From a virus: a stretch of 22,259 bases of DNA. Position 1 is the stretch's first letter. Each line of letters begins with the position of its first letter. The stretch spans positions 1-22,259 of the IMG/VR virus record IMGVR_UViG_3300000101_006642. One strand, given 5' to 3'. This document shows positions 1,056-22,161 of the stretch, one piece after another. Both the position numbers and the translations under genes were made by a program. The notes under the pieces were generated by a model. That model had not been told where the DNA came from. It saw nothing but the letters and a program-made list of their open reading frames with translations, and did not search any database.

Positions 1056-1729
1056 TCGTATACTGTTGTGTCTTTATACCAATCTACTAAATTTACTCCA
1101 CGTTTCAACCAATTTACTTTAACATCTTCATCTAAACAATCTTTTAAGAAAAAACTCATACCATTATCAACCATAGTTTGATAATTTAATTTAAATTCTA
1201 TACCTTTATTAGCCATATAATTCCAAGCAATTAATGCTTCAGGTGGAATAGATAGTAATTCATCTATTTGAAAATCAAACATTATTTTTAATTCATCTAC
1301 ATTTCCATAAATTACATTATCAGCTGGATAATCATGGCTAGTATGGAGATAAACCAAATCATAAACTATATCTCCTCTAACTCCTTCTTTACATGTTGCC
1401 ATAAAAGATAATTGTTTACCTTTTAATTTAGGTAATAATTTATCTAAGTTAGTAACAATAGTATCACTTCTAACTTTAAGTATTTCATCAACATTATGAG
1501 CCATAAGACCTTCATAAGTAGATCTAATCTGCATATTAACATTCATGTAACCTGGAAATTTAGGGGGTTCAACTAAAATAACCTTAATACCTTTAGATTT
1601 AATATAATCTAATCTAACTACAGATTCATTATTCCAAGTTGACCATACAACATTATCAAATTGAGAATAGTGATCAGTTAATTCTTTATAAAATTCAGTT
1701 GGTCCCTGAATTAAAATACCTTGTTTCAT
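1049..1729 (-). CDS. WavE-like lipopolysaccharide synthesis protein / putative glycosyltransferase
   Basis: The 226-aa product matches what I know of the WavE family of LPS-core proteins, thought to be glycosyltransferases. It opens with ILIQGP (5-10), then VVWSTWNN (27-34), NMQIRSTYEGL near residues 65-75 and ILKVRSDT near 83-90; the last fits the conserved acidic active-site strand of the family. No signal peptide or membrane segment is visible, so it should be cytoplasmic. It lies between an SDR gene (1 base gap) and the HAD-nucleotidyltransferase fusion (7-base overlap), consistent with translation from one message. Family call is good; donor and acceptor are unknown. Confidence 0.7.
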   Translation of the reverse strand: MKQGILIQGPTEFYKELTDHYSQFDNVVWSTWNNESVVRLDYIKSKGIKVILVEPPKFPGYMNVNMQIRSTYEGLMAHNVDEILKVRSDTIVTNLDKLLPKLKGKQLSFMATCKEGVRGDIVYDLVYLHTSHDYPADNVIYGNVDELKIMFDFQIDELLSIPPEALIAWNYMANKGIEFKLNYQTMVDNGMSFFLKDCLDEDVKVNWLKRGVNLVDWYKDTTVYEW

Positions 1730-1730
1730 A

Positions 1731-4268: not shown

Positions 4269-4804
4269 TATTTTGTTTTACAAAAATCAGCAAATTCAAC
4301 TAATATAGTACTTACCCCATCTTCTCTATTTAATGCTTTTTTATATGCTGGAACTATATCTTCAGGTTCAAATAATTGTACTATTTCTATATTATTAGTC
4401 ATCTGTTTAAATGCAGTTGAAAAATTACCCTTATGTTGACATTGTGGATCAACAGGATATTCACTACCTACAGCTACTCTAATAATAACTTTTGGTGTAC
4501 ATTCACCTTCTGACATTGAAGAAAATTTATCCAAGTGATTTACAATTTGATCAACCCCCATTAATAAAAAATTCCATCTAGGAAAAGTAGATACGGGTAT
4601 CATTCCTTCAATAGCCATACCATTAGCTAAACCACATTGAAAATATTCTGCCACAGGCAATTCTAATCTTTTTTCTTTTGGTATATGTTTTAAACTATCA
4701 TACAGACCTGTTCCTTCATATTCCACAGCTTGACCTATAAAATGTGTTTTTGGGTTATCAGCTAATAAACTCATAGCCTTTACTATTTCATCTATATATT
4801 TCAT
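4268..4804 (-). CDS. Thiamine-diphosphate enzyme, pyrimidine-binding subunit (E1-beta/transketolase-like, minimal)
   Basis: The 178-aa product is the Pyr domain of a ThDP enzyme of the 2-oxoacid dehydrogenase E1/transketolase type. The conserved motif is clear: LPVAEYFQCGLANGMAIEG (49-67) with Glu53 at the position of the catalytic Glu that activates the aminopyrimidine ring, followed by GVDQIVNHL (93-101), which matches the E1-beta DQI-N signature. Normal E1-beta subunits are about 325 aa because they carry a C-terminal transketolase domain of about 130 aa; here it is absent and the protein ends after the Pyr domain. It directly follows the PP-domain gene with no gap, so the two almost certainly form one enzyme. 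The substrate is unknown. Confidence 0.8.
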   Translation of the reverse strand: MKYIDEIVKAMSLLADNPKTHFIGQAVEYEGTGLYDSLKHIPKEKRLELPVAEYFQCGLANGMAIEGMIPVSTFPRWNFLLMGVDQIVNHLDKFSSMSEGECTPKVIIRVAVGSEYPVDPQCQHKGNFSTAFKQMTNNIEIVQLFEPEDIVPAYKKALNREDGVSTILVEFADFCKTK

Positions 4805-5437
4805 CTAAAATTGTACTCGTTGCCCGGCACCTGCGTGTGGGTATTTTTGGTTATCATATTGATAATAATATAAGTGAGGTAATTTTAATATCCCACCTGT
4901 ATATTCGTTATTTTCTAAAAAATAGGGTAAATTTCTCCCCCATATTTTATCTGTAGGTGTGCATACAGATTTTCTATTATCTTCAATTACAAAAGTGATA
5001 GGTAAATTATGATTTAAACTATACTTATACGCTTCATGAAAAGCACCTGTTTCAGCACTCATATCACCTACCCAACACCATACTCTATTATCTGTATTTT
5101 TTATTTTAATTGCTAAAGCAATACCAGTAGCTATAGAAGGTATACCTCCTACAATTGAACTACATATAAATTTATATTTGGGAAGATTCATTACCATAGA
5201 CTTACCAGATAATATTTTTGATCTTAGTAATTCTGGGGGTATTCCTTTAAGTAAACCTTGATAATGGTTTCTCCAAGTACAACATATCCAATCATTTTTT
5301 ATATCAATATCTTTAAAAACATCAATAACATGGTCCTCATTACCCGAGTATAGATGAACAGGAGCTTTAATTTTCCCTTCATTAAAAAGATCTCCTATTT
5401 CTTTTTCAAATGCTATTAAATAATTTTTGCTTACCAT
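4805..5437 (-). CDS. Thiamine-diphosphate enzyme, diphosphate-binding subunit (E1-alpha-like, minimal)
   Basis: The 210-aa protein is the PP domain of a ThDP enzyme resembling pyruvate dehydrogenase E1-alpha. The ThDP/Mg motif begins GDM at 124-126 (canonical GDG, with Met in the third place) and ends at Asn154, the right spacing; between them GAFHEAY (131-137) and LPITFVIEDN (145-154) fit E1-alpha well. The earlier segment TWRNHYQGLLKG (54-65) corresponds to the E1-alpha Y-R-x-H-G region and SIVGGIPSIATG (94-105) to its G-I-V-G-x-x-x-P-x-A-x-G region. Family members are usually 320-360 aa, so the C-terminal third is missing. It overlaps the upstream dehydratase gene by 7 bases and abuts the Pyr-domain gene. 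Confidence 0.82.
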   Translation of the reverse strand: MVSKNYLIAFEKEIGDLFNEGKIKAPVHLYSGNEDHVIDVFKDIDIKNDWICCTWRNHYQGLLKGIPPELLRSKILSGKSMVMNLPKYKFICSSIVGGIPSIATGIALAIKIKNTDNRVWCWVGDMSAETGAFHEAYKYSLNHNLPITFVIEDNRKSVCTPTDKIWGRNLPYFLENNEYTGGILKLPHLYYYQYDNQKYPHAGAGQRVQF

Positions 5438-6423
5438 ATAAAGTTATTTTTATAATAGTTAACAATTTTCCATAATTCTTCTTCAAAATTCTTTTGAGGT
5501 TCCCAACCTAAATTTCTTAATTTATCATCATTTAAAGCATATCTTACATCTTGCCCTTGTCTAGAATAAGAAAAGTCTAAATATTGGTTTTTATCTAATC
5601 TGTATTCTGGGATATTATATATTCTTTCTTCATCATAAAAATATGTGTCTAGTATTTTTTCAATTGTTGTTAAGTTTGATTGCTCATAACCCCCACATAT
5701 ATTATAAATTTCATTCTTTTGGCTAGTTTCAATAATGTTAATTACAGCTTCTGCTGTATCGGCGGCATGTAACCAATTACGTATTGGATCTCCATTATTA
5801 TGTAATGGTATTCTTTTATTTAATTCTAGATATTTTATTGATTTAGGAATAAGTTTTTCAACATATTGGCCTATACCATAATTGTTAGTTGGTCTTATTA
5901 TTACATATTCTATATTATATGTTCTTGCCCAAGCTAAAATTAATTGGTCAGCAGCTGCTTTTGTTGCTGAATAAGGATTTGAGGGTTTTAGAATATCGGT
6001 TTCTAAATGTTCTCCTTCTGTTATATCACCATAAACTTCATCTGTTGAAAAATGAAAAAATAAAGGACTAGCTTTACCTTCAGCTCTATAATTTCTAATT
6101 AATTCTAATAAATTATGAACTCCATTTATATTTGAATGAACAAAATCTTCACTTTTAACTATTGAATTACCAACATGAGTTTCGGCAGCAGTATTAATAA
6201 CATAATCACATTCATATAAAAATTCTAAATCATTAATATCAACTTGTTCAAAAGTAAATCTTTTATTTTTTTCAAATTCTTTTAATAATTGAGGGTTAGA
6301 TGCATAAGTAATTTTATCTATACCTCTTACATACCAACCTTGTTCTAAACATGCTCTAGTTACATAAGAACCTATAAAACCTAGGCAACCTGTTATATAA
6401 ACTATTTTATTTTCTCTTTGCAT
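5431..6423 (-). CDS. dTDP-glucose 4,6-dehydratase-like SDR
   Basis: The protein resembles RmlB-type nucleotide-sugar 4,6-dehydratases, which turn an NDP-hexose into the 4-keto-6-deoxy sugar. Starting at the ATG at 6423 gives 330 aa and places the Rossmann motif TGCLGFIG at residues 11-18, as in the family; an in-frame ATG at 6465 would add 14 residues lying inside the upstream gene. Catalytic Thr-Asp-Glu is at 127-129 (STDEVYGD), the residues that set dehydratases apart from simple epimerases, and YxxxK is Tyr151/Lys155 (PYSATK). A RPTNNYG motif follows. The usual second Gly-Ala of the Rossmann motif is Cys-Leu. It sits directly after the His-type DegT enzyme (17-base overlap); together they could make a 3,6-dideoxy-4-keto sugar. 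Confidence 0.82.
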   Translation of the reverse strand: MQRENKIVYITGCLGFIGSYVTRACLEQGWYVRGIDKITYASNPQLLKEFEKNKRFTFEQVDINDLEFLYECDYVINTAAETHVGNSIVKSEDFVHSNINGVHNLLELIRNYRAEGKASPLFFHFSTDEVYGDITEGEHLETDILKPSNPYSATKAAADQLILAWARTYNIEYVIIRPTNNYGIGQYVEKLIPKSIKYLELNKRIPLHNNGDPIRNWLHAADTAEAVINIIETSQKNEIYNICGGYEQSNLTTIEKILDTYFYDEERIYNIPEYRLDKNQYLDFSYSRQGQDVRYALNDDKLRNLGWEPQKNFEEELWKIVNYYKNNFIW

Positions 6424-7567
6424 CAAAAAATTCTTTAATTTTATTACAAACGTAATCAACGTCATCTAACCCCATTCCATGGTGAGCTCCTAGTAAAAAA
6501 CCATTTTTCATTACTATATCTGCTACTTCAAAATCTTGTAAATATTCTCTATAAATTGGGTGGCGAGTAACATTACCCGCAAATGTAACTCTTGTTTGAA
6601 TATTACTATCTTCTAAAAAACGTAATAATTCTAGTCTATTTTCAGTTTGTAATGGTATAGCTAACCAATTTGGCTTAATACTATCATCAGGTAAAACTAA
6701 TTCTTTTACATCTTTTAAATTTTCTAAATAACGTTCTATATTAGCACGTCTTATATCTTTAAATGATTGAAATCTTTCTAATTGAACTAATCCAAAAGCA
6801 GCGTTAGCTTCAGCACATTTCATATTATATCCTAAAACACCATATAAAAATTTATAATCATAAGGTAAACCATCAACATTATGTGTAAATCTTTCATCCA
6901 TGTTTTCACTATTATCTCCAATTCTTCCCCAATCACGAAACATTAATGCTCTTTTTTTATGTTCTTCATTATTAAACATTACCATACCACCCATTCCACC
7001 AGCAGTTATAACATGAGAAGCATAAAAACTAGTTGTTGAAACATCCGAACATTCTGTATATGTAATAGTATCCGCTGAATCTTCTATTATTGGTATATGT
7101 TCCATACCCATTCTCATTAATTCATTTCTTAATGTATCAAAATCGGGTTTATTACCTATTAAGTTAGGTATCATTATAGCTCTAGTTTTATTAGTAATCG
7201 CATCACAAATAGATTGAACACTAGGCACATAAGTTGTTAATTCTGAATCAATAAATTTAGGAACATAACCTAACTGTATAATAGGAGCTAATGTTGTAGA
7301 AAAAGTTAAAGCAGGAGTAATTACTTCTGAACCTTTTTCTAAATCTAAAGAAGCTAAAGCTAATAAACATGCTGATGAACCCGAATTAACGAACACACCA
7401 TATTTTTTACCAAATTCTTTAGCTATTTTCTGTTCAAATTCAGTAGTACGAGGACCAAATCCAGCTAACCACCCATCTCTAAGTGATTCTTCTACTGCTT
7501 TTATTTCTGCATCCCCATATGATTCAAATTTATAAGGAGCATACCATACTTTTTTTCTATTACTCAT
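6407..7567 (-). CDS. DegT/DnrJ/EryC1-fold PLP enzyme of the sugar 3-dehydratase type (ColD/RfbH-like)
   Basis: The 386-aa protein has the sugar aminotransferase fold: NSGSSACLLAL (61-71), TPALTFSTTLAPI (84-96) and IIEDSAD (160-166), where the Asp pairs with the PLP pyridine. The usual PLP-binding lysine motif reads SFYASHVIT (180-188), so His185 stands where aminotransferases have Lys. This exchange marks the 3-dehydratases ColD (GDP-4-keto-6-deoxymannose) and RfbH/E1 (CDP sugars). The later RDWGR, GLPYDYK and GYN segments look more like RfbH, but the four Fe-S cysteines of RfbH are not apparent and the length (386) is that of ColD (388). I infer removal of the sugar C3 hydroxyl; the nucleotide carrier is undecided. 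Overlaps of 4 and 17 bases tie it to its neighbours. Confidence 0.8.
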   Translation of the reverse strand: MSNRKKVWYAPYKFESYGDAEIKAVEESLRDGWLAGFGPRTTEFEQKIAKEFGKKYGVFVNSGSSACLLALASLDLEKGSEVITPALTFSTTLAPIIQLGYVPKFIDSELTTYVPSVQSICDAITNKTRAIMIPNLIGNKPDFDTLRNELMRMGMEHIPIIEDSADTITYTECSDVSTTSFYASHVITAGGMGGMVMFNNEEHKKRALMFRDWGRIGDNSENMDERFTHNVDGLPYDYKFLYGVLGYNMKCAEANAAFGLVQLERFQSFKDIRRANIERYLENLKDVKELVLPDDSIKPNWLAIPLQTENRLELLRFLEDSNIQTRVTFAGNVTRHPIYREYLQDFEVADIVMKNGFLLGAHHGMGLDDVDYVCNKIKEFFDAKRK

Positions 7568-8091
7568 GTTGTTATTATTAATTGTGTTGTATCAGAAGCT
7601 TTAGCTTTTAAAAATTTGTAATTTGCATTTTTATTTAAAAAATTTACTTCTAATAATTCTAAATCATACGACATTTCTACAAATTCTAAATCATCTATTA
7701 TAACTGTATGGTTATCTATTTCATGATTTAATATATGTTCTATTTCGTGTTTAATTGGACTTTCATACCCATTGCGATGAGCATCTAACCAAAATAAAGC
7801 TGGTCTATTAACTTTTTGGAGTAGTTCGGGCATCATAATAGATGAATCTCCTTTATACAAATATAATTCGGGAGTTTCTGTTGGCCTTGGCCCCCATATA
7901 TCTAAAGGCATAAATCTTTTATAGCTTTCATCAAAAAAATGAGGTTCAATTTCTACTGAAATAATTGTTTCAAATCCTAAATCAATAGCGTCTTGAACAG
8001 AATCACCCATATAAGTCCCTGTTTCAAAAAAAATCCTATGTGAAGGTTTTTTATGATCACTAAATAATTCTTTATACGGCCAATATCCCAT
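7564..8091 (-). CDS. Methyltransferase-like protein (class I Rossmann fold)
   Basis: The 175-aa product looks like a small class I SAM-dependent methyltransferase or a relative. A glycine-containing motif I equivalent, FFETGTYMGDS (21-31), is followed by IISVEIEPHFF (43-53), where the acidic residue after the second strand would bind the SAM ribose, then KGDSSIMMPELL and ALFWLDAHR, which resemble motifs seen in sugar-cluster methyltransferases of the Methyltransf_24/FkbM type. It overlaps the GT10-like gene by 20 bases upstream and the DegT-type gene by 4 downstream. A role in O-methylating a sugar is inferred from context. Confidence 0.6.
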   Translation of the reverse strand: MGYWPYKELFSDHKKPSHRIFFETGTYMGDSVQDAIDLGFETIISVEIEPHFFDESYKRFMPLDIWGPRPTETPELYLYKGDSSIMMPELLQKVNRPALFWLDAHRNGYESPIKHEIEHILNHEIDNHTVIIDDLEFVEMSYDLELLEVNFLNKNANYKFLKAKASDTTQLIITT

Positions 8092-8893
8092 TATGTTTAA
8101 AAATATTAGTTATTTCGTTGACTATATTCTGCTCGTAATCTACGAACTTTAAAGCACGATTCCAATTATCTTCAATAGCTTCTTTTTTATCCATATAAAA
8201 AGCTCTATTTAATTTATTAGATTGGTGTATAATATCATCAACATTGTTTACTTGTATTACTCCATCCAAATTAAAAAAGTCTCCTATATTAGAACAACCC
8301 CAATAAATTGGAATTGATCTTAATAAAAATAAATCTAATATTTTCTCTGTAAAATACCCTCTATGATTTGTGTTCTCAATTGCGACGGCAAACATGTTTT
8401 TTCCAAATACATCCATTTTGCCCTGTCTAGCATTATTAATATCGTGTCTATCTCCATACGTGTGATAAAAATTTGTTTCTACTTTATTTATTTCTTTTTC
8501 TCTAGCTAATAATTCATGTCTTAAACTATGACCATAAGTTTTATTTAATTTTCCTGCTAGATGTGAAATTTTAAATTCTTTATGTGTTTTTAACTTATAA
8601 TCATTGGGTTTAAACCAAGTATGCCCAAATGGTAAAAATGATGAATTATCTGTATTATTTAATACTTTATCATCCCAAGTTAATATAAATGAAAAATAAT
8701 GACTGTTTTCAATAGCCCAATTATGTAATCCAAAATATTCATCTGGTTCCTGTAAAACTAAAACATTAATTTCTGATAGATCTTCTTGACTTGTGGGAAT
8801 ATCATCTACAAATAAAGTAAATTCAATATCTTTTAAATGTTCCATTTTTTTCTCAAAAACAGAAGCATCAAAATGTTTTATTTTTAGTTTCAT
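8072..8893 (-). CDS. GT10-type fucosyltransferase-like glycosyltransferase
   Basis: I choose the ATG at 8893, which gives a 273-aa protein and a 4-base ATGA overlap with the gmd stop; an upstream in-frame ATG at 8908 lies inside gmd. The C-terminal half carries the GT10 donor-binding signature: FAVAIENTNHRGYFTEKIL (168-186) followed by SIPIYWGCSNIGDFF, matching the family pattern E-N-x(5)-Y-x-T-E-K ... [VI]-P-[IV]-x-x-G. GT10 enzymes transfer L-fucose from GDP-fucose, typically alpha-1,3 or 1,4. The adjoining gmd- and fcl-like genes would supply this donor. No membrane anchor is visible. Acceptor and exact donor (fucose or a related GDP-deoxysugar) are unknown. Confidence 0.78.
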   Translation of the reverse strand: MKLKIKHFDASVFEKKMEHLKDIEFTLFVDDIPTSQEDLSEINVLVLQEPDEYFGLHNWAIENSHYFSFILTWDDKVLNNTDNSSFLPFGHTWFKPNDYKLKTHKEFKISHLAGKLNKTYGHSLRHELLAREKEINKVETNFYHTYGDRHDINNARQGKMDVFGKNMFAVAIENTNHRGYFTEKILDLFLLRSIPIYWGCSNIGDFFNLDGVIQVNNVDDIIHQSNKLNRAFYMDKKEAIEDNWNRALKFVDYEQNIVNEITNIFKHNGILAV

Positions 8894-9861
8894 AATATCT
8901 CTACCCAATAATTAATCATTTCATCAATCATTGTTTCAAATGTATAATCAGGTTTCCAACCTAATTTTCTCAATTTAGTTGAATCTCCTTTTAAATCCCT
9001 TAATTCTTCAGGACGTAAAAATTTTGGATCCGTTTTAATATACTGTTTCCAATCTAAATCTAATTTATTAAAAGTATATTCGACTAAATCCTTAACTGAA
9101 TGTGATACACCAGTAGAACATACAAAATTATCAGGTTTATCTTGTTGTAACATTAACCACATTGCTTTAACATAATCTTTAGCATGCCCCCAATCACGAG
9201 TAGCATCTAAATTACCTAATGTTAAATCTTGTTTTATACCTTTTTTAATTTGTACAGCACCTTTTACTACTTTATTAGTTACAAAATTAGTCCCACGTCT
9301 AGGTGATTCATGATTAAAAAGTATCCCATTTGAAATAAATAAATTATATGAATTTTTATAATTATTACAAATATTATAAGAATATACTTTTGCACAACCA
9401 TAAGGAGATACTGGTGATAAAGGTGTAGTTTCTCTCTGATATCCGTCTTTGTCAATATTATTACCAAACATTTCACTACTTGATGCTTGATACATTTTTA
9501 TTTTAGGATCTGTTAATCTTATTGCCTCAAGTAAATTAAGCGTACCTATACCAGTAGCTTGTGCTGTGTATATTGGTTGATCGAATGAGATTCTAACGTG
9601 TGATTGCGCTGCTAAATTATAAATTTCGCATGGTTTACTTTGTTGTATAACTGATATTAATGAAGATAAATCGGTTAAATCTGCATATTGCAATTTACCT
9701 AATAATTGAGGGTAAATTTCATCTAATCTAGATGTTTGATTTTCAGCTACAGAATTACGTTTAATTGTACCCCATACTTCATATCCTTTTTCTAATAAAA
9801 ATTCGGCTAAATATGACCCATCTTGACCATTAATTCCCGTTATTAATGCTGTTTTTTTCAT
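8890..9861 (-). CDS. gmd: GDP-mannose 4,6-dehydratase
   Basis: The 323-aa protein is a clear GMD. It has the diagnostic TGINGQDGSYLAEFL (8-22), LAAQSHVRISFDQP (83-96), catalytic SSSEMFG (127-133) and the YxxxK pair Tyr154/Lys158 (PYGCAK), then NHESPRRG, typical of the GDP-binding region. It converts GDP-D-mannose to GDP-4-keto-6-deoxymannose, the branch point to GDP-fucose, GDP-colitose, GDP-rhamnose and GDP-perosamine. Slightly shorter than most bacterial GMDs (about 345-370). It overlaps the methyltransferase gene before it and the GT10 gene after it by 4 bases each, so the three are probably co-translated. Confidence 0.93.
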   Translation of the reverse strand: MKKTALITGINGQDGSYLAEFLLEKGYEVWGTIKRNSVAENQTSRLDEIYPQLLGKLQYADLTDLSSLISVIQQSKPCEIYNLAAQSHVRISFDQPIYTAQATGIGTLNLLEAIRLTDPKIKMYQASSSEMFGNNIDKDGYQRETTPLSPVSPYGCAKVYSYNICNNYKNSYNLFISNGILFNHESPRRGTNFVTNKVVKGAVQIKKGIKQDLTLGNLDATRDWGHAKDYVKAMWLMLQQDKPDNFVCSTGVSHSVKDLVEYTFNKLDLDWKQYIKTDPKFLRPEELRDLKGDSTKLRKLGWKPDYTFETMIDEMINYWVEIL

Positions 9862-10706
9862 TTATTGCTTGCTTTTCCTGCATTAATATAAATCCAATGT
9901 GGGTGATTATCACCTGGACCTGTTGGTCCTATAATATAATTAAAACTTGCAAAACCTGCTGCTTCTAATGATTTTTTTAATTGAATAGGATGGCTTACTT
10001 CAACATCAAAAGCTCTATTAGTACCAGGAGCATCATAAAAATTTTCATAATAATCTACTGATGATATTGCTGGTGATCCATATCCCATTTGAAAACAAAG
10101 CACACCCCCCTCATTTAATACTCTATAAAATTCACTAAAATAACTTTGTCTAATATCATGAACACATATATGTTGTAATGCTACAGTACTCATTACAATA
10201 TTATATGAATTATCTGGTATAGCACTTAAAGAAATACCATCACAAGTATATAGATTTGAATTAGTAATTCCATTTTTATCAATATACTTTTTAGCATTTC
10301 TAATGTTATTTTCACTTATATCAACTCCATCAATTTGTTTAAATTTATCTTTATATTTAACAATATTTCTCCCAGGTCCACAAGCAAAATCTAAAACTTT
10401 ACACTCATGTAATGGAAATCCTCCTAATCTACAAAATAAAAATTCATAATCCCACCAGGTATTATGTTGATCAAAACTACCTACTACATTATCAACCTCA
10501 ACACCGTCCCCAGTTGCTGCTGCTTCTTCATAATAAAGTTTCTGCATTTTAGTATAAACATTATCAGGACTTGGAGGGTTTAATTTTGGATCATCTAAAA
10601 TCATTTCTGCTGCAGCACCATCATCTCTTTTAATCTCAGCTAATTGATTAGACATTACTACCTTTCTACTTTTTTTCTTTGATTTTTTACGTCCTAGCTC
10701 TTTCAT
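9858..10706 (-). CDS. SAM-dependent methyltransferase (class I)
   Basis: The 282-aa protein has a textbook class I methyltransferase core: motif I VLDFACGPGRN (104-114), then IDGVDISENNI with the ribose-binding Asp, a YTCDG segment, and NIVMSTVALQHI, followed by FYRVLNEGGVLCFQMG. Methyltransf_11/25-type enzymes look like this. The first 17 residues are Lys/Arg-rich; an internal ATG at 10655 is preceded by AGAAAGG and could be the true start (265 aa), so the N-terminus is uncertain. The longer form overlaps the fcl-like stop by 20 bases. Lying between the two GDP-fucose pathway genes, it may O-methylate the resulting sugar; this is inference. Confidence 0.82.
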   Translation of the reverse strand: MKELGRKKSKKKSRKVVMSNQLAEIKRDDGAAAEMILDDPKLNPPSPDNVYTKMQKLYYEEAAATGDGVEVDNVVGSFDQHNTWWDYEFLFCRLGGFPLHECKVLDFACGPGRNIVKYKDKFKQIDGVDISENNIRNAKKYIDKNGITNSNLYTCDGISLSAIPDNSYNIVMSTVALQHICVHDIRQSYFSEFYRVLNEGGVLCFQMGYGSPAISSVDYYENFYDAPGTNRAFDVEVSHPIQLKKSLEAAGFASFNYIIGPTGPGDNHPHWIYINAGKASNK

Positions 10707-11589
10707 AATTTTCTATAAACCAATTAACTGTTTCTTTAATTCCTTGCTCAAATGAAGTATATTTAAAATTAGGCATTAATTCTTTAATTTTTGAATTATC
10801 TGATGGTTTTTTGTATTGCCCATCGGGTTTTGTAGAATCAAATATTACATTACCCTTAAAATTAAATTCTTGAACTAATAAATCAACTAAATCTTTAATA
10901 CTAACTTCTTCATCTCCGCTTATTATTAATGGATCAGTACCTTCATAATTTTCTAAAACCCATTGAGATATTTTAGCTATATCTTTGGAATATATGAATT
11001 CTCTTAACGGTTTCCCACTACCCCATACAGTAAAGTCTGTATTGTTTTTCTTAGCTAAATATAACTTATGAATTAACATAGGCATTACATGACCATGATC
11101 TAAATTAAAGTTATCATTTGGACCATAAATGTTAGATGGAATTATTGATGTATAATTTAAACCATACTGTTCTCTATAAGCCCTAATTTGAACATCAGCC
11201 ATTCTTTTAGCATAAGCATAAGGATAATTTGAACTATGAGGCTCACCTGTATGGATTTGGTCTATTGTTAATGGATAACTTACGTTATCAGGAAACACAC
11301 AAGTAGATAAGTATGCTACTAAACGTTTTACACCTGATAATCTAGCTGCCTCTATTACATTGGTATTAATAAGTAAATTTTTATAAAAATATTCACCTTT
11401 AAAATTAGAGTTTCCTCCTATACCTCCTACTTTACCAGCACAGTGTATTATACCTTCTGGTTGTAGTTTTTTAAAGGTGTATTCAGTTCTTTCTCTATTG
11501 GTTAAATCGCAATCTTCTCTTGATAAATGAATATCTGCATCTATAGCACTACCTACCATTCCATGGCCACCTGTAACTAATATTTTCAT
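10687..11589 (-). CDS. fcl: GDP-L-fucose synthase-like epimerase/reductase
   Basis: The 300-aa protein resembles GDP-fucose synthase (Fcl/WcaG), which epimerises C3/C5 of GDP-4-keto-6-deoxymannose and reduces C4. It shows TGGHGMVGSAI (6-16), STCVFP (95-100) carrying the catalytic Ser/Thr and the active-site Cys97, the YxxxK pair Tyr124/Lys128 (PYAYAK), and NIYGPNDNF with a following HGHVMP, where the second catalytic acid/base His lies. All key residues are present. Because a ColD-like 3-dehydratase is also in the cluster, the paralogous function ColC (making GDP-L-colitose) cannot be ruled out by eye. Confidence 0.88.
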   Translation of the reverse strand: MKILVTGGHGMVGSAIDADIHLSREDCDLTNRERTEYTFKKLQPEGIIHCAGKVGGIGGNSNFKGEYFYKNLLINTNVIEAARLSGVKRLVAYLSTCVFPDNVSYPLTIDQIHTGEPHSSNYPYAYAKRMADVQIRAYREQYGLNYTSIIPSNIYGPNDNFNLDHGHVMPMLIHKLYLAKKNNTDFTVWGSGKPLREFIYSKDIAKISQWVLENYEGTDPLIISGDEEVSIKDLVDLLVQEFNFKGNVIFDSTKPDGQYKKPSDNSKIKELMPNFKYTSFEQGIKETVNWFIENYERART

Positions 11590-12221
11590 ATTGTTGAATA
11601 AAATAAATTTTGTTGTCTTTGTCTATCTATATTCTTTATGTGATATAAAGCATAAGAATCATCATCTGCTGGTAATTCAGCGTAGGTCTTCCATCCAACT
11701 ATTTGCTCATGGACTTTGTTGACCCATTTTATTTCAGGTTTATTTCTAAATATTCTATGTTGATTATCGGGCCAATTTACCCAACCATGCTCATTTAATT
11801 GCCATCTCCATTCAAGAACATCTTTTTGTTCTAATCCTTCAACAATATTAACACGGGGTATAGCTATTAAATCAACTTCTTCATTTGATTCTAGAACTTC
11901 ATGGATTACTCTACAAAAAGTTTCACTTAAAGTTTCATCTGCATCAATCTGGAATATCCAATCTTTAGTACAGTAGGATTTTAAATTATTTTTAAATGAT
12001 CCAAAATCATTGTTTAATTCAAAAAAACATCTTTTTACAAGAAAATTTGATTTATTTTTATCAACAAAACCATCAACTAAAGATATTACCTCTATTGTTG
12101 CCTTACTATCCAATTGGATAATAATTTCATCTGTAGGTTTAACGATTTTAATTATTTGATTTAATAACCTATCTAATTCTTCATGCTCATTATAAGCAGT
12201 AATAGCAAAACTTATTCCCAT
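11586..12221 (-). CDS. GT2 family glycosyltransferase
   Basis: The 211-aa protein is a short GT-A fold glycosyltransferase of family 2. It opens ISFAITAYNEHEELDRLL (3-20), the family's nucleotide-binding start, continues with DEIIIQLDS (31-39), and has the metal-binding DxD as Asp93-Ala-Asp95 in FQIDADETLS (90-99). A HRIFRNKPEIKWVNKVHEQI stretch near the C-terminus is typical of WaaE/KdtX-like GT2 enzymes that act on LPS core. No membrane segments, so a soluble or peripheral enzyme. It overlaps the fcl-like gene by 4 bases. Confidence 0.85.
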   Translation of the reverse strand: MGISFAITAYNEHEELDRLLNQIIKIVKPTDEIIIQLDSKATIEVISLVDGFVDKNKSNFLVKRCFFELNNDFGSFKNNLKSYCTKDWIFQIDADETLSETFCRVIHEVLESNEEVDLIAIPRVNIVEGLEQKDVLEWRWQLNEHGWVNWPDNQHRIFRNKPEIKWVNKVHEQIVGWKTYAELPADDDSYALYHIKNIDRQRQQNLFYSTI

Positions 12222-12224
12222 AAT

Positions 12225-12683
12225 TTAAGATTCAAAAAAACCAATATATTCTAAAGCATCCATAAAATCTTCTTGTTTAAAATTTTTCATAGTTTTCATA
12301 TCAGTTTTATGTTTATAATAATCATCAGTTCCAGGAATTTTGAATTTTTCCTTTTCTTCTTCTTTTACATCTGTTACTTTAACTCCTGTCCATTCCCATG
12401 TTTTCCAATCTTTCCCATTAACAAAAACAGTTCCTTTATCTGGGATGTTAATTGAAGTAGGGTACCATACTCTTCCTAATTCATCTCCAACTTTAAGATC
12501 TTTATAAATTTCCGGAAGGGTTTCTTCATATTGTGAGAAATCAAATTCACCTTGAATCATTAAATCATTAGTTGTAAATCCACATCCAAAGCAAAAATAG
12601 TTTTTAACCTGTGGATTTAGTTCTGTGGTGTAACAAGCGTCACCACCACACTTCATACAAAGTTCTAAATTATCTTTAGTCAT
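12225..12683 (-). CDS. Zinc-ribbon hypothetical protein
   Basis: The 152-aa protein has an N-terminal zinc ribbon: Cys9-x2-Cys12, an extra Cys17, and Cys31-x2-Cys34 in the pattern CMKCGG ... CFGCGF. Similar small zinc ribbons begin many T4-like marine phage proteins. The rest (about 45-152) is acidic and Trp/Lys-rich, with no recognised domain. It lies inside the glycan cluster, 3 bases from the GT2 gene and overlapping the GT4 gene upstream by 8 bases, yet does not look like a sugar enzyme. Function unknown; nucleic-acid or protein binding is plausible. Confidence 0.7.
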   Translation of the reverse strand: MTKDNLELCMKCGGDACYTTELNPQVKNYFCFGCGFTTNDLMIQGEFDFSQYEETLPEIYKDLKVGDELGRVWYPTSINIPDKGTVFVNGKDWKTWEWTGVKVTDVKEEEKEKFKIPGTDDYYKHKTDMKTMKNFKQEDFMDALEYIGFFES

Positions 12684-13971
12684 TTTTTTTAGGTAATGAG
12701 ATTTTTTTAATATTAGGTAATTTAATTTCTACTTTTTTAGGAGCATTTTTATCAATTATTTCAATTAATTCTTCACTCATCTTTTCAAATGAAAAATTAC
12801 TTTTACATCTAAATCCTAATTGTTTACCTTTTACTTCGTATCCCTTATAGCTATTAAAATAATCTTTTAATAATAATTGGGTAAACTTAGTATCTGGAGA
12901 AAACCATTTACTTTCTTTTATAATTAACCCTTCTTGAACAGCTGAAGCATCTACTTGTTTTAATTCACCAGGAATAAGACTAGCAAATTCAGCATCAAGA
13001 AAATCAATATGACCACTCCAATTAGGAGCTATTACTGGTTTTTTACTTTGGGTAAATTCTAATAATGGTCTTCCAAATCCTTCACCTTTAGTTAAACTAA
13101 TCATAGCTTTAATCTTTGGATGATTATATAAATCATTCATATCACTATCTTCAATTTCACCATGGAGTAAATAAATGCTAGGTAATTTTCCTTTTACAGT
13201 TTTTCTAATAGCATCAATTCTCTTTAACATTTCTTCTTTATCCATTATACACGCTGGACCACTCATAGTTTTTAAAACTAAAGCAGGAGCCTTGGATTTA
13301 TTTGTAAATGTTTCAAAAAATGTCTGAATTAATAAACCTACATTTTTTCTATCTTGTCCTATAGCACCTTGTAGCCAATGACCAACAAATAAAAAGCTAA
13401 ATTGTTCTTTAATTTCATCTAAACTTTTTACTAATTCAGTTCTTTTTAAATCTTTTGGAGGAATGTGAAAGTATTTATTTATATCTACTCCTTCAAATAA
13501 TACCTCTACTGGTGTTTCAAGTTTTACTGCACCTGCGGCATTACCTGCTTTATCTTTTTTATCATAGACAGTTTTTTCAAATACACCTTTTGTATGATTA
13601 GAAGAAGCTAAAACTAAATCCATTCTATTACATCCTTCTATGAACTGAGGTGTACAAATATCAGTTTCAATACCAGCTGTAATTCCAATATTAAATTTAC
13701 CAACTTTTTGAAACTCATTTGGAACAGTAATTTGAATCCAAACATCTGGTGCCCTTTGTAATGGTGGTTTTATTTCAGTATTTAATAACTTTTGATCTTC
13801 AGAATTATCTTTATTTAAAAATCCAAAGGGAGTAGTACCCCATCTTTGGAATAAACATTTTACTTCATATTTTTCAGAATTTACAAGAGCTCTTACTATA
13901 TCTCTTGCTCTACTTCCATAACCACTGTAAGTATCTAGTGGGCAACTTACTACTATATAAGGTTTACTCAT
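12676..13971 (-). CDS. GT4 family glycosyltransferase
   Basis: The 431-aa protein is a GT-B fold glycosyltransferase of family 4. The N-terminal domain has a glycine-rich loop (YSGYGSRARD, 15-24). The C-terminal donor-binding domain contains FLFVGHW and the E-x7-E signature at Glu297 and Glu305 in TKGEGFGRPLLEFTQS, followed by KPVIAPNWSGHIDFL. Such enzymes retain the anomeric configuration and use NDP-sugars. No signal peptide. It is 2 bases downstream of another GT4 gene, to which it is not obviously a close copy, suggesting two different transfer steps. Confidence 0.87.
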   Translation of the reverse strand: MSKPYIVVSCPLDTYSGYGSRARDIVRALVNSEKYEVKCLFQRWGTTPFGFLNKDNSEDQKLLNTEIKPPLQRAPDVWIQITVPNEFQKVGKFNIGITAGIETDICTPQFIEGCNRMDLVLASSNHTKGVFEKTVYDKKDKAGNAAGAVKLETPVEVLFEGVDINKYFHIPPKDLKRTELVKSLDEIKEQFSFLFVGHWLQGAIGQDRKNVGLLIQTFFETFTNKSKAPALVLKTMSGPACIMDKEEMLKRIDAIRKTVKGKLPSIYLLHGEIEDSDMNDLYNHPKIKAMISLTKGEGFGRPLLEFTQSKKPVIAPNWSGHIDFLDAEFASLIPGELKQVDASAVQEGLIIKESKWFSPDTKFTQLLLKDYFNSYKGYEVKGKQLGFRCKSNFSFEKMSEELIEIIDKNAPKKVEIKLPNIKKISLPKKND

Positions 13972-13973
13972 AA

Positions 13974-15410
13974 CTAATATATAAATTTATGTTTTATTGT
14001 TTTTGGTTCTAATTTTTCTACTTTTTGAAAAGTAAAATTACGTCTAGGAGTAAAATTTTCTATAGTTTGATCCATATATTTAATTACATTTTTACTCATA
14101 TTTTTAGCAGTACATCCTGATTCTTCTGAAGTGACCCATTCACGACCAGCTAATCCTCTTTCTGTTCTTTCTTCTTTAGACATATCATAAACCACTTTTA
14201 TTTTCTCAGCTAAATCTCTAAAATCTAATCTATCATCAAAAATATAAGGTGTTTTTGGTGAACCAACTATACTCATGTTTGATGGAAATACTGGAACAGC
14301 CCATTTACCATGTTTTTTGTAGGTTCCAAAATGGTTAGAACAGAAATTTTTATCAAATTTAATCCAATCTCCATTTTCATCTTCAAATCTCATTTGATCC
14401 TGCATACCACCTGTTGTATTTGCTAAAATCATAGTTCCAGCCATCATAGATTCAGTTAATGCTAATCCCCATCCTTCATTTGAAGAAGGTAAAATAGTAA
14501 CATCAGCCATATTATATAATACATTCATTGATTCTGGGGTTATTCTGCCATCAGAAAATAATATATTTGGATCTTCACCAAATAATAGATCTCTAACAGC
14601 ATATAAATCCGTACCATTATCATCTACAGGAGCTGTGTGTAATATTAATGCAACTTTATCTTGTTTTGCTTTTGGTAAACCATCTTTAAATACTTTCCAA
14701 GCAGCAAATAAATCAGATATACATTTTCTTCTAATATTTCTAGAGTTAAAGAAAGCAACCATATCATACTCTTTATTACCTAATAAACGAGTTCTAGTTT
14801 CATTTAATTCTTTAATATGTTTATCATCTTTAGTTATAGGTCTAAATACTTCCTCATCAATACCATGGGGCACATAAGCAATAATTTTATCTTTTGCTTT
14901 TTCACCTAATACTAATCTATTAATATTTTCAGTTTGTTTAGAAATAGCCAATAATGTATCACAAGAATCATAATATGATTCATTATATAAAGGAGCAGGT
15001 AAATCGTCCCAAATATTTAAATAAACCATTGGTATTTTAGATCTAATTTCATTTTCCATTCTAAATAACCATTCCCAATATCTAGGATCAGTAAAAAAGA
15101 ATAATGCATCTGGTTTTTCAACTTCCATTATAGCTCTAATAATCTCTGGAGACCCATATCCATTTTGAGGATATAAAGTAACTTTAGCATCTGGGATGTT
15201 AGTTCTATTTGAAGTATCTTGACTTAGATCAATTTTTTTCCCTTGTTCAGGGTGATTTATAGCAGCTCCAACATTAACCCAATTATACTTGTGAGCAGTA
15301 CCTAGTACTATTTCACGAGCCATTGTTGCTATTCCGGAATGCATTCTAATGTCATCACAAAGGAATAATATTGTTTTTCTCTTTGTATAGGGTAAATAAC
15401 CTTCTTTCAT
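13974..15410 (-). CDS. GT4 family glycosyltransferase
   Basis: The 478-aa protein is a GT-B fold GT4 enzyme. It starts with TILFLCDDIRMHSGIATMAREI (13-34 region), carrying the loop that binds the acceptor, has a hinge segment YVPHGIDEEVF (179-189) typical of GT4, phosphate-binding Arg/Lys around NSRNIRRK (222-229), and the E-x7-E motif Glu312/Glu320 in NEGWGLALTESMMAGT. It is the first gene of the glycan cluster in transcription order, beginning 9 bases after the RHH-like gene. The C-terminal about 45 residues (basic, ending HKFIY) extend beyond the core. Confidence 0.88.
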   Translation of the reverse strand: MKEGYLPYTKRKTILFLCDDIRMHSGIATMAREIVLGTAHKYNWVNVGAAINHPEQGKKIDLSQDTSNRTNIPDAKVTLYPQNGYGSPEIIRAIMEVEKPDALFFFTDPRYWEWLFRMENEIRSKIPMVYLNIWDDLPAPLYNESYYDSCDTLLAISKQTENINRLVLGEKAKDKIIAYVPHGIDEEVFRPITKDDKHIKELNETRTRLLGNKEYDMVAFFNSRNIRRKCISDLFAAWKVFKDGLPKAKQDKVALILHTAPVDDNGTDLYAVRDLLFGEDPNILFSDGRITPESMNVLYNMADVTILPSSNEGWGLALTESMMAGTMILANTTGGMQDQMRFEDENGDWIKFDKNFCSNHFGTYKKHGKWAVPVFPSNMSIVGSPKTPYIFDDRLDFRDLAEKIKVVYDMSKEERTERGLAGREWVTSEESGCTAKNMSKNVIKYMDQTIENFTPRRNFTFQKVEKLEPKTIKHKFIY

Positions 15411-17632: not shown

Positions 17633-17883
17633 TATAGCGTCTTTGGAGGGCTATATTCGTATTCTTCTCTTAACTCTTTTGGAATTGTATCTTGTAAAAT
17701 TTCATTAGTTTCAGGATCATAAAAAATAGGAATAGGTATAAGACCGTCTTCACTTGTTCCAGTAACAAATTTTGAAATTCTACGTAAAATAACTCCAGAT
17801 TGCCATATTTTTCCTCCACTTGGAAGATCTACAGCAGTTGTTTTAGTTAAATCTAAGTTAACTTGTGGTTGTTGATTTTGCAT
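17632..17883 (-). CDS. Small phage protein between clamp-loader genes (possible degenerate zinc ribbon)
   Basis: This 83-aa protein is inserted between the two clamp-loader genes, with 1-base TAATG overlaps at both ends. Segments VNLDLTKTTAV (8-18) and GVILRRISKFVTGTSEDGLIPIPIFY (30-55) recall a small protein of marine T4-like phages that, as I remember it, carries two CxxC knuckles forming a zinc ribbon. In this copy the expected positions read LPSGGK and DPETNE, and the protein has no cysteine at all. If the family match is right, zinc binding has been lost. Function unknown; its position suggests a link with replication. Confidence 0.6.
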   Translation of the reverse strand: MQNQQPQVNLDLTKTTAVDLPSGGKIWQSGVILRRISKFVTGTSEDGLIPIPIFYDPETNEILQDTIPKELREEYEYSPPKTL

Positions 17884-18803
17884 TAAAATGGTTTTAATAA
17901 ATTAGCGACACATCCCATAAAATTTATTTCTTTATCCGGAGCCATTACGGATTGATATTGGGCTTCAGCTATAATAACTGTACCTAATACAGGGTTATGA
18001 AATGAATCTAAGTTTTGGTATAAGGCTCTATATAATTCACTATAATCTCTAATATTTGAATCAGCAACTAACTGTCTTATTTGAGTAAATGCTTTATCAT
18101 CATTAGATTTAATTAGATCAATAACTTGATCTGTATATTGTTTTTGATTAACAATTTCTTTATTTAATTGCAAAAATGTACCTGCTTGATCATATACAAT
18201 ACAAGATTGTAATAAATTTAATGTTTTCCTAATGTCAGGATAAGTTTTATTTACAATTTCTACTATATCAGCAGGAACATTATTACATGTTTCTTGATGT
18301 AATATTTCTTTACAACGTTTAGCTACCTCTGATTTAGATGGAGGTAATATTTCAAATACTGAGGTCCTAGATTGTATAGGATCAATGATTCTTTCAATAT
18401 AATTACAAGTAAATATAAATCTCGTTGTTTTTGAGAACGTTTCAATAACGTTACGTAAAGCTGCTTGCGCGTTTATAGTTAAAAAATCAGCTTCATCCAT
18501 TATAACCACTTTAAGTGTGCGGAATGTCGCAGCAGAAGCAAATGATTTTACTTTTTCTCTAATTGTTTCTATACCATTTTCATCTGAACAATTAATATAT
18601 AAATCATCAACATCTAAATTAGAAGCAATTAATTTAGCAGCAGTTGTTTTACCTGTACCAGCAGGCCCATATAATAAAATATGGGGAATATCTTGTTGTT
18701 TAATCCAAGTATTTAAACTTGATTTGAATACTTCGTTTCCTATGTATTCCTTAGGATCTGTTGGGCGAAATCGCTCTGTAAATAAAGTGTGTTCTTTAAT
18801 CAT
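17883..18803 (-). CDS. 44: Clamp-loader ATPase large subunit (T4 gp44/RFC-like)
   Basis: The 306-aa protein is an AAA+ clamp-loader subunit close to T4 gp44 (319 aa) and archaeal/eukaryal RFC small subunits. The N-terminal FTERFRPTDPKEYIG (8-22) is the RFC box II region; Walker A is GPAGTGKTT (46-54); Walker B is VVIMDEADFL (99-108), with the RFC-type DEAD; sensor 1 is in FIFTCNY (129-135). The arginine-finger motif, SRC in RFC, reads SRT at 145-147. It hydrolyses ATP to open the gp45 clamp and place it at primer ends. The gp45 gene is not adjacent; instead a lipoprotein gene and a terminator lie upstream. Confidence 0.93.
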   Translation of the reverse strand: MIKEHTLFTERFRPTDPKEYIGNEVFKSSLNTWIKQQDIPHILLYGPAGTGKTTAAKLIASNLDVDDLYINCSDENGIETIREKVKSFASAATFRTLKVVIMDEADFLTINAQAALRNVIETFSKTTRFIFTCNYIERIIDPIQSRTSVFEILPPSKSEVAKRCKEILHQETCNNVPADIVEIVNKTYPDIRKTLNLLQSCIVYDQAGTFLQLNKEIVNQKQYTDQVIDLIKSNDDKAFTQIRQLVADSNIRDYSELYRALYQNLDSFHNPVLGTVIIAEAQYQSVMAPDKEINFMGCVANLLKPF

Positions 18804-18860: not shown

Positions 18861-19685
18861 TTATAGATTCTCGTATTCTTTAATGAATTCGATCCACCAT
18901 AATATAAATTTAGATTCCTTTGCTGCATTCCACGCTGCTGTCATTTCAGTAACTAATGTTCTAAAATTAATTACATTTGTGTCAGTAGAATTATCATAAA
19001 ATGTAGTTGCTGACGCAGTCATTGATACAGTACCTGTTTTAATTGCATTATTAAAAATCCAATTTGATTCGGCTGTTATCAATCCCTTTAACGTAGCAGG
19101 GGTAACACTTGCAGAGGTTAATCCTATAGATACAGAATCAATTGCAGTATTCAGTTTTGCATCTGAAATAGTTGCTGCAACCATAGTATCTAATTTATCC
19201 CTAACAGATTTAAAATCTTGTAAAATCAAAACATCTGCTAAAGCAGCATCTATTGATGCTTGTAAAGTAGTTGCTGAAGTTGTTAAACTAGCAACTTGAG
19301 ATGTTAAAGTTGTGATTTGAGAATTTAAGTCTGTCGTTGATGATGCATTAGTTGAAATAGTAGTATTTAAAGTTACTATTTGTGCATCCAACGTTGTAAT
19401 CTGAGTATTCAGACTGTCTATTGACGTTGTCAATGTTGAGATTTCTGCTAACTGATCATCATTAGTAACTCCTAATGCTGTAGCGGCAGTGTTTAAATCA
19501 TCAATTTGTGTTGTTAATGAAGTAGTTTGAGATAACAACTCGTTTTTTGAAATTGTAAGTGCATTTATCTGTTCTTGATATTGACTTCTAATTTCGCCTA
19601 CTTCTTCAGGTGAGAACCAATCTTGTTTCTCACAACTTACACTCATTCCAATGAGCATAAGTGAAACTAATAATAGTTTTTTCAT
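18861..19685 (-). CDS. Coiled-coil lipoprotein
   Basis: The 274-aa protein starts with a lipoprotein signal peptide: MKK, a hydrophobic stretch (4-14) and a lipobox MSVSC with Cys18 as the lipidation site, followed by EKQDW, much like Bacteroidetes lipoproteins. Residues about 30-170 are a long Ser/Thr/Asn-rich coiled coil with hydrophobic residues (Leu, Ile, Val) every three or four positions, likely a trimeric or dimeric rod. The last 100 residues are a distinct globular part ending in WWIEFIKEYENL. It would sit on the outer face of the cytoplasmic membrane or on the outer membrane of the host. The gene is set apart by a hairpin before and a terminator after it, as for a moron. Roles such as receptor masking or superinfection exclusion are possible; nothing in the sequence proves one. 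Confidence 0.8.
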   Translation of the reverse strand: MKKLLLVSLMLIGMSVSCEKQDWFSPEEVGEIRSQYQEQINALTISKNELLSQTTSLTTQIDDLNTAATALGVTNDDQLAEISTLTTSIDSLNTQITTLDAQIVTLNTTISTNASSTTDLNSQITTLTSQVASLTTSATTLQASIDAALADVLILQDFKSVRDKLDTMVAATISDAKLNTAIDSVSIGLTSASVTPATLKGLITAESNWIFNNAIKTGTVSMTASATTFYDNSTDTNVINFRTLVTEMTAAWNAAKESKFILWWIEFIKEYENL

Positions 19686-19709
19686 AATAATTACTTTTTT
19701 AAAAGTAGT

Positions 19710-19740
19710 AAAGGACAGGGGAATCGAACCCCTATCCTTT
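19710..19740 (-). other. tRNA-like acceptor/T-arm minihelix hairpin
   Basis: Between the Hc1-like and lipoprotein genes, minus-strand RNA would form a 12-bp stem with a 7-nt loop. The outer 7 pairs are AAAGGAU with GUCCUUU (the seventh a U-G wobble), the inner 5 are AGGGG with CCCCU, and the loop is UUCGAUU, a perfect tRNA T-loop. This is the 7+5-bp, 7-nt-loop layout of the tRNA acceptor/T-arm half, followed by A as a discriminator-like base but CUA rather than CCA. No D-arm or anticodon arm is present, so it is not a tRNA gene. It may instead act as a terminator, although the following sequence ACTACTTTT is a poor U tract, or be an integration-site remnant. Confidence 0.6.
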
Positions 19741-19759
19741 TCTGTAAATAAATACTAAA

Positions 19760-19927
19760 TTATTTGCTTTCCGCAACCGAAGCTTTACGATAATCTGTAA
19801 CTAGCTTTTTTATTGATCCAATTGCTTTTCTAGCTCTTTGCTGAGAAGCTTTGGTTGTTCCACTGTTTTCCATTCTAAAAGTTTCATACAATGAATCAAT
19901 TTGTTCAAAAATTTCTTGTTTTGTCAT
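19760..19927 (-). CDS. Histone H1-like protein (Hc1 type)
   Basis: A 55-aa reading frame lies 17 bases after the groEL stop. The product begins MTKQEIFEQIDSLYETF and continues SGTTKASQQRARKAIGS (22-38), IKKLVTDYRKASVAESK (39-55). This fits the short Hc1 proteins found widely in Bacteroidetes: an acidic N-terminal helix, a small linker, then a basic helix with the K-A-x(4)-R-A-R-K-A-x(3)-I-K-K-L pattern. Such proteins bind and compact DNA. Start ATG at 19927 has an A/T-rich leader with no Shine-Dalgarno, as in its neighbours. In a phage it could condense phage DNA or displace the host's own nucleoid protein. The family call rests on pattern recognition. Confidence 0.72.
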   Translation of the reverse strand: MTKQEIFEQIDSLYETFRMENSGTTKASQQRARKAIGSIKKLVTDYRKASVAESK

Positions 19928-19944: not shown

Positions 19945-21588
19945 TTACATCATTCCCGCCATCGGGTTTGGTGTTTCTTCTTTATCCTCTCTTTTTTCAT
20001 ATATAACTGATTCAGTAGTGAGGATAGTTCCAGCTATTGAAGCAGCATTTTCTAAAGCAATACGTGTAACTTTTTTAGGATCAATTATACCTAAACTTTT
20101 AAAGTCTACTATAGCTAAATCTTTATAATCTAACCCTTTCCACGTATTATTTTTAGCATTTAACAAATTATAGGATGCAAATCTTACATTATTTTCTTCG
20201 TGCCCTGCATTTGTTAAGATTTTAACAAAAGGTTCTTGAATTGCTTGTTCAACAATATTTTTACCTATCATTATATCTGGGTTCTTAGATAAAAATGATT
20301 TAAGTCTTTTAGAAGCTTGTAACAAAGCAACTCCACCTCCAGCTATAATACCTTCGTCTAGAGCAGCTTTAGTAGCAAATAAAGCATCTTCAACTCTATC
20401 TTTTTTCTCTTTAATTTCTATTTCTGAATTACCACCTACATTAATAATAGCTACTCCACCAACTAATTTACCTAGTCTGTCTTGTAGTTTTTCTTTTTCA
20501 AATGCAGATGAAGCTTTATCTAATTGAATTTTAATTTCTTCAGCTTTTTGAGAAATAGCTTCTTCAGAACCTTTACCATCTACTACTGTAGTTTTTTCTT
20601 TAGAAACATTTACAGTTCTGGCTTTTCCTAGTAATTCATTAAATTGTAAAAGTTGTAATTTTTCTAATTTATGTCCTTTATCTTTAGAAATTACTTGCCC
20701 ACCTGTTACTGTTGCTAAATCTTCTAAAGCCATTGTTCTTCTATCACCAAAATCAGGTGCTTTAACGGCAACAACATCAATAGTACCTCTCATTTTATTA
20801 ACAATTAAGGTAGCTAATGCTTCCCCGTCAATATCTTCGGCAACTATTAATAGTGATTTTGATTCACCACTTACTTTATTTAAAACATTAAGTAATTCAG
20901 ATGCTTGTGTTATACGTCCATCATATATTAAAATATAAGGATCATTTAATACAGCTGACATTGTATCGTTATCAGTAACAAAATAAGGTGATTTATAACC
21001 TCTATCAAATTGCATACCTTCAACTACTTCTAATGAAGTATCACCAGATTTAGATTCTTCTATAGCTACAACTCCATCTCTACCTACTTTATCTAAAGCA
21101 GTAGAAATTAAATTACCTATTTCTGTATCATTATTACCTGATATTGTTGCAACTTCTTTAATTTGTGCATCATCTGTAATTTCAGTTGATTTATCTTTTA
21201 ATTCTTCTACAACAGCAGCAACTGCTTGATCAATACCTTTTTTAATATCTACAGGATTAGAACCATCATTAATAGTTTTAATACCTTCCTCTAACATAGT
21301 AGCAGCTAGTAAAGTAGATGTTGTTGTTCCATCCCCTACTTCATTAGCAGATTTAATAGATACTTTTTTAGCTAATTCAGCTCCTATTGATTCGGTTTGA
21401 TCTTCTAATTCATTAAAGGCTCTGGCTACAGTTACACCATCTTTAGTGACTTTAATTTCACCCATTTGGTCTTTGATTAATACTGTTCTACCAGCTGGCC
21501 CTAGTGTAGAAACCACACTATTATTTAACTTTTGAACTCCCTCTAAAAGTTTGTTTTTTAATTCCTTTCCAAAACTTGTTTCTGTCAT
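19945..21588 (-). CDS. groEL: Chaperonin GroEL (phage-encoded)
   Basis: The 547-aa protein is a complete group I chaperonin. ATP-site motifs are intact: [11 protein letters not shown] (28-38), KDGVTVA (49-55, Asp50), [13 protein letters not shown] (84-96, Asp86, equivalent to catalytic Asp87 of E. coli), and the equatorial [19 protein letters not shown] with the Asp equivalent to Asp398. Length is normal. The tail ends PNPMAGMM, lacking the extended Gly-Gly-Met repeats of most bacterial GroELs. It works with the GroES directly upstream (1-base gap), so the phage brings its own folding chamber, where T4 brings only the cochaperonin gp31 and uses host GroEL. A likely client is the major capsid protein. 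Confidence 0.95.
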
Positions 21589-21589
21589 G

Positions 21590-21883
21590 TTATTCTTCTA
21601 AAATTGATAAAATTGAACTTTGAGCTGTGATGTAATATTCTTCTCCATCTACAGTAACTGTTTGAGCCCCCATTTTTGGAATTAAAACTTTCATACCTTC
21701 TTTTAAGGTATTAGGTACATACTCACCTGTATTAAAATTATAAACTGAAGAAATAGCTACTATTTCTCCCATTTCTGGTTTTTCTTTTCCCATATCAGGG
21801 ATAATAATATTACCTGACATCATTTCCTGTTCTTCTACAGGACGTAGTATAACATTACCATTTACTGGTTTTAATTTACTCAT
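21590..21883 (-). CDS. groES: Cochaperonin GroES (phage-encoded)
   Basis: The 97-aa protein is a GroES/Cpn10. It opens KPVNGNVILRPVEEQE (5-20), followed by the mobile loop MMSGNIIIPDMGKEKPEMGEI, where SGNIIIPD corresponds to the GroEL-binding G-G-I-x-L tripeptide region, and ends with the GMKVLIPKMGAQ dome-base strand and EEYYITAQSSILSIL. Length matches cellular GroES. It starts in a 4-base overlap with the 93-aa gene and is 1 base from groEL, a standard groESL order within the early part of this transcript. Confidence 0.93.
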   Translation of the reverse strand: MSKLKPVNGNVILRPVEEQEMMSGNIIIPDMGKEKPEMGEIVAISSVYNFNTGEYVPNTLKEGMKVLIPKMGAQTVTVDGEEYYITAQSSILSILEE

Positions 21884-22161
21884 TTTAAAATTGCATTTTT
21901 TAGATTAATATGTGTTTGTTTAAATTCTTCAGCATATTCTGTTAATTTAAATGTTTTTTCTTTTAACATTTGGTATTTTGCTATTGCTAATATAGCGTCA
22001 GGTAGTGCCGTATGAAAACCAAGTGTTTTATTTTTTTCAGTATCAACTACGTTAAAACTATACTCATCAATAGCGATTTTAAACTTACCTAGTAAAGGAT
22101 CTTCTATAAATGTTGATTTACCTGATCCTTTTGGTCTGCCTTTAAAGTTGGGATTTGCCAT
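21880..22161 (-). CDS. Small hypothetical protein upstream of groES
   Basis: A 93-aa basic protein that I do not recognise. It starts MANPNFKGRPKGSGKSTF, with a GRPKGS segment that resembles an AT-hook or a basic DNA-contact tail. A mixed strand/helix middle follows (LLGKFKIAIDEYSFNVVD), then two helices (residues 52-92). No signal peptide or cysteines. It is the first gene after the predicted promoter and overlaps groES by 4 bases, so all three chaperonin-operon genes share the message. A DNA-binding role is only a guess from the N-terminus. Confidence 0.6.
   Translation of the reverse strand: MANPNFKGRPKGSGKSTFIEDPLLGKFKIAIDEYSFNVVDTEKNKTLGFHTALPDAILAIAKYQMLKEKTFKLTEYAEEFKQTHINLKNAILK

Follow-up and report, generated by a model that had tools for sequence, protein, structure and literature searches.

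The DNA binding of chlamydial Hc1 (HctA) is usually ascribed to its lysine-rich C-terminal region. In vitro the protein represses transcription as well as binding DNA (PMC13317200). Hc1 proteins are also common in the Bacteroidota, where 87 of 148 sampled genomes carry one. The Hc1 family itself is already known, as is the label 'histone H1' that has been given to an Hc1-type protein of Synechococcus phage S-SRM01, while the phage branch is otherwise mostly unlabelled. Our literature search found no paper testing any phage Hc1. Here we describe an Hc1 gene in a 22,259-nucleotide stretch of viral DNA (the window), and compare it with its relatives in phages and cells.

The Hc1 gene of the window and its phage relatives

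In the window, groES is followed by groEL and then by Hc1 as the last gene of the run. The features are as follows.

21880..22161, minus strand: 93-aa protein that opens the groES-groEL-Hc1 run and is kept only in close relatives of the window (L001-L006); no Pfam family matched
21590..21883, minus strand: phage groES, 97 aa (PF00166, Cpn10, E 9e-20; phrog_3188)
19945..21588, minus strand: phage groEL, 547 aa (PF00118, E 7e-64; phrog_5725, chaperonin groEL, E 8e-146)
19760..19927, minus strand: Hc1 (PF07432) gene, 55 aa, an open reading frame with a Pfam match and a predicted two-helix hairpin bearing a basic stripe on helix 2
19708..19741 (approximate), minus strand: 12-bp hairpin and U-rich stretch about 19 nt past the Hc1 stop, a probable intrinsic terminator
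17883..18803, minus strand: clamp loader large subunit of the T4 gp44 type (phrog_168, E 9e-76)

The translation of the 55-aa frame (window 19927-19760, minus strand) is MTKQEIFEQIDSLYETFRMENSGTTKASQQRARKAIGSIKKLVTDYRKASVAESK. In a Pfam profile search it matched PF07432 with an E-value of 4.1e-7 and 30.2 bits, above the curated cut-off of 23.5 bits, and the match is full-length, with residues 5-55 aligned to profile positions 2-56 of 57; some copies in sister phages score slightly under the cut-off, at 18-21 bits. When IMG/VR was scanned with a single sequence, 276 of the 291 pattern-matched viral stretches kept the frame, and it recurred in at least 571 stretches when the scan was made with an alignment. 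Comparison with the nearest relatives gave dN of 0.05-0.12 and dS of 0.6-1.6 (dN/dS about 0.07-0.11, NG86), and 16 of the 55 positions hold an invariant residue across 16 diverse phage copies. Frame conservation together with dN/dS rules out a chance open reading frame. Judged from its sequence, the 55-aa frame is a genuine Hc1-family phage gene under strong purifying selection, and we regard the identity of its product as a member of the phage branch of Hc1 as close to certain. An earlier note on this DNA had proposed a short Hc1-family gene next to groEL, and had suggested an HMM search and the fate of the frame in related phages as ways to judge it; the profile match, the spacing of 17 nt from the end of groEL at 19945 and the recurrence of the frame are all in agreement with that proposal.

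The same note held that phages rarely carry this family, and here our data point the other way. Sequence scans indicate that Hc1 is widespread, occurring in hundreds of mostly marine phages and mostly unlabelled. Beyond the IMG/VR stretches, Hc1-type proteins are found in the Prevotella Lak phages of the collection, in metagenomic megaphages and in the cyanophage S-SRM01. The 635-kb megaphage LR745206.1 (L083) has two copies, at 246465 and 567427, which belong to different clades. The suspicion that annotation could miss the gene was well placed: the copy in Flavobacterium phage immuto (gp196) is annotated as 'hypothetical protein', and neither PHROGs nor NCBIfam held a usable model or label for the protein, so that phage annotation tends to overlook it. 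We note that phage-type Hc1 also occurs on short MAG contigs labelled Deltaproteobacteria (L084), Pelagibacter (L085) and Flavobacteriales (L086). L085 has a phage gene order, which makes it likely that this contig, at least, is a piece of a phage genome binned with bacteria.

The hairpin at 19708-19741 (-23.7 kcal/mol, z -4.4) probably closes the groES-groEL-Hc1 unit as an intrinsic terminator in the window phage. Its T-arm-like sequence led us to consider a tRNA remnant; none was detected there by ARAGORN or Rfam, and the hairpin is therefore read as a terminator. Between Hc1 and the clamp loader lies a gene (18861-19685, minus strand) whose 274-aa product is a coiled-coil protein and bears a lipoprotein-like signal (MKKLLLVSLMLIGMSVSCEKQ); the other fetched loci yielded no relative of it. 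The clamp loader large subunit itself is a conserved downstream neighbour in relatives of the window. Elsewhere in the window, a long run of minus-strand frames at 1049-15410 resembles sugar-nucleotide epimerases/dehydratases, aminotransferases, methyltransferases and glycosyltransferases, and on sequence alone reads as a phage-borne surface-glycan module. Relatives of the window also carry an Hsp20 gene upstream of groES in about 20 loci (as at L016:2314-2730, plus strand; PF00011, E 2.5e-11).

Genomic neighbourhoods

The neighbourhood of Hc1 was tallied over 116 fetched viral loci, many of them related and so not independent events. groEL lies upstream of Hc1 in 50, and in 47 of these the two genes are 2-32 nt apart; Hc1 is located in a terminase/portal module in a further group of 43, and beside a DnaB-type helicase or a ribonucleotide reductase in seven. 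The terminase/portal module comprises the terminase large subunit, the portal protein, a thymidylate-kinase-like protein and a predicted dehydrogenase. In immuto-type loci the neighbours are DNA polymerase A and groES/groEL, and in window-type loci they are the clamp loader and groEL.

The groES-groEL-Hc1 order with its short gap in 47 of the 116 loci, and the presence of Hsp20 near Hc1 in some, would be consistent with Hc1 being an accessory or client of GroEL, acting with the phage chaperonin and not with DNA. We consider such a role highly improbable, because Hc1 is present where the chaperonin is not: no GroEL was detected in the two Lak genomes tested, in megaphage LR745206 or in S-SRM01. 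Moreover, groEL is more than 70 kb away from Hc1 in G011 and G015, and none of 64 fetched cellular Hc1 loci had groEL in its flanks. Since several complete Hc1-bearing genomes are without groEL, the pairing is frequent and not obligatory, and an obligatory GroEL partner is ruled out.

The 43 loci of the terminase/portal type raise a different alternative, in which Hc1 would be an internal head protein that travels on the genome inside the capsid and is injected together with the DNA, like the internal proteins of T4. Several neighbours of Hc1 in these loci have in common the N-terminal motif MNNFDLKKYLAEGKL.E, which was present in 27 of 503 open reading frames of at least 70 aa there and in 0 of 626 in groEL-type loci. 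We take this motif to be reminiscent of the T4 capsid-targeting peptide, and by that analogy it may mark internal head proteins. The Hc1 N-termini, however, lack the capsid-targeting leader or motif of their neighbours, the motif being in any case our proposal, and within the stretches seen Hc1 lies away from head genes in both the window and immuto lineages. Carriage of Hc1 in the head is accordingly a reading that we hold to be distinctly unlikely. Written as M(N)NFDLKKYLAEGKL.E, the N-terminal motif of these neighbours is shared by different protein families in the terminase/portal module (L028, L037-L040, L049-L054, L059, L062, L063, L072, L079, L080 and L125).

Predicted structure, kinship and host

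AlphaFold predicts the window protein as a hairpin of two helices, residues 3-21 and 26-54 (pLDDT 93), and predicts the same two-helix architecture for a Marinimicrobia Hc1 (pLDDT 94). Helix 1 is net negative and helix 2 net positive, the latter with a nearly invariant basic stripe of K26, R33, K34, K40, K41, R47, K48 and K55. Positions 33, 34, 40 and 47 are K or R in 100% of phage, Marinimicrobia and Bacteroidota Hc1 proteins, and positions 26, 41, 48 and 55 are basic in at least 96% of the phage copies. The placement of these eight positions on one helical face has a p of about 0.003 relative to random positions in a post hoc test, and the charge-moment test taken alone is borderline (p 0.05). 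The net charge of phage Hc1 is modest, from +1 to +6 with a median of +3.

A structural search with the hairpin gave no significant match, the best E-values being 0.6 in PDB and 0.18 in BFVD; the best BFVD row, also not significant, is named 'Histone H1 [uncultured virus]'. Sequence search of solved structures returned only chance-like eIF2B matches. The top PDB rows from Foldseek are ribosomal L29/L35-type chains with TM of about 0.8, which could suggest an RNA- or ribosome-binding protein with a fold resembling that of ribosomal protein uL29. Their E-values of 0.6 or worse argue against this, and the modelled two-helix hairpin is a generic fold, resembling many unrelated chains, so that we give RNA or ribosome binding very little credence.

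In a tree of 83 rows and only 59 columns, the phage copies group together with strong support (100/100) within the Marinimicrobia-like part, in a set that also includes Kapabacteria/Ignavibacteria copies and the three MAG contigs, which are possibly phage. The ordinary Bacteroidota clade is separate from them, with supports of 97/95 and 100/100. By sequence, phage Hc1 is thus closer to the Marinimicrobia/Kapabacteria types than to ordinary Bacteroidota Hc1, in a sample where cellular relatives were sought with patterns from phage motifs and phage-like ones were as such favoured. A profile built from the phage copies recovers in return Marinimicrobia Hc1 and many Bacteroidota Hc1 proteins. A Marinimicrobia copy sits between HSP90 and an M48 peptidase, flanks which indicate that it is chromosomal. 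Recent capture from a Bacteroidota host was rejected on the separate clades of this 59-column tree, with the Kapabacteria/Ignavibacteria rows falling inside the phage clade.

Since phage Hc1 does not group with the Bacteroidota clade, Hc1 by itself is weak evidence of host, the more so as a Synechococcus phage has one. The earlier note had taken Hc1 to support a Bacteroidetes host; the host assignment keeps its support, though from another source, in that the gene order common to the window and Flavobacterium phage immuto points to a Bacteroidota host more strongly than Hc1 does.

These relationships also bear on host takeover, in which phage Hc1 would mimic or displace host Hc1 or other nucleoid proteins and so silence or rearrange the host chromosome. 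Bacteroidota hosts often have an Hc1 of their own, making mixed assemblies possible, and the transcriptional repression by the chlamydial protein would suit such a function. However, a mimic might be expected to be close to host Hc1, and the phage copies are not; nor are their neighbours those of an early takeover region, being replication, chaperone and packaging genes. We therefore judge host takeover to be unlikely.

Proposed role and comparison with known systems

It is probable, by analogy, that Hc1 is a phage nucleoid-type protein binding the phage's own replicating or packaged DNA, a role that we regard as the most likely because in most lineages it lies among genes for replication or packaging. 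In this small protein, helix 1 would pack on helix 2, molecules would probably associate with one another, and helix 2 would contact the DNA backbone through its basic side, without sequence preference. Hc1 may in this way coat or condense the replicating DNA of the phage or the DNA entering the head, and joint expression with groES/groEL, in the many lineages that have this arrangement, would simply mean that it is transcribed at the time of head-protein folding. As the lysine-rich tail is missing and the net charge is small, DNA binding by phage Hc1 is something that we infer. More tentatively, and as a possibility that we would not yet favour, a large and mainly marine clade of tailed phages may have its own histone-type nucleoid protein, which evolves apart from host Hc1 and condenses phage DNA; some lineages would also package this protein into the head, alongside leader-bearing internal proteins. 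Phage-encoded chromatin-like proteins are seldom studied, and here one small family under selection is found in hundreds of phage contigs.

Phage Hc1 has the PF07432 domain in common with chlamydial Hc1, but the window frame ends with the domain at residue 55 (...YRKASVAESK), without the lysine-rich C-terminal tail. It resembles the short cellular Hc1 proteins of Bacteroidota and Marinimicrobia, sharing their length of 55-60 aa and basic positions 33/34/40/47, and, with the Marinimicrobia protein, the two-helix prediction. Unlike these, phage copies have TTKA or SKAA in place of the GNKAAG loop, end in YRKASVAE.K, form their own clade and are often directly behind groEL. Among phages, the Lak proteins also match PF07432, at 75-77 bits, but are closer to the Pfam profile, lie outside the phage clade and have no detectable phage GroEL. 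The S-SRM01 'histone H1' (YP_010670256.1) is likewise a phage Hc1-type protein, in contrast nearer the Bacteroidota type, from a phage with a cyanobacterial host and no GroEL found in its genome; it was retrieved with Bacteroidota and Marinimicrobia queries and not with the window protein. A further counterpart is gp196 of Flavobacterium phage vB_FspM_immuto_2-6A (KNV73_gp196), which is 62-64% identical and has the same groES-groEL-Hc1 order, although immuto has DNA polymerase A upstream and its fetched region shows no match to a clamp loader immediately downstream. Isolated Flavobacterium phages such as immuto thus carry the same arrangement as the window, and culture experiments can therefore address directly whether Hc1 acts in packaging, in host takeover or in the compaction of DNA.
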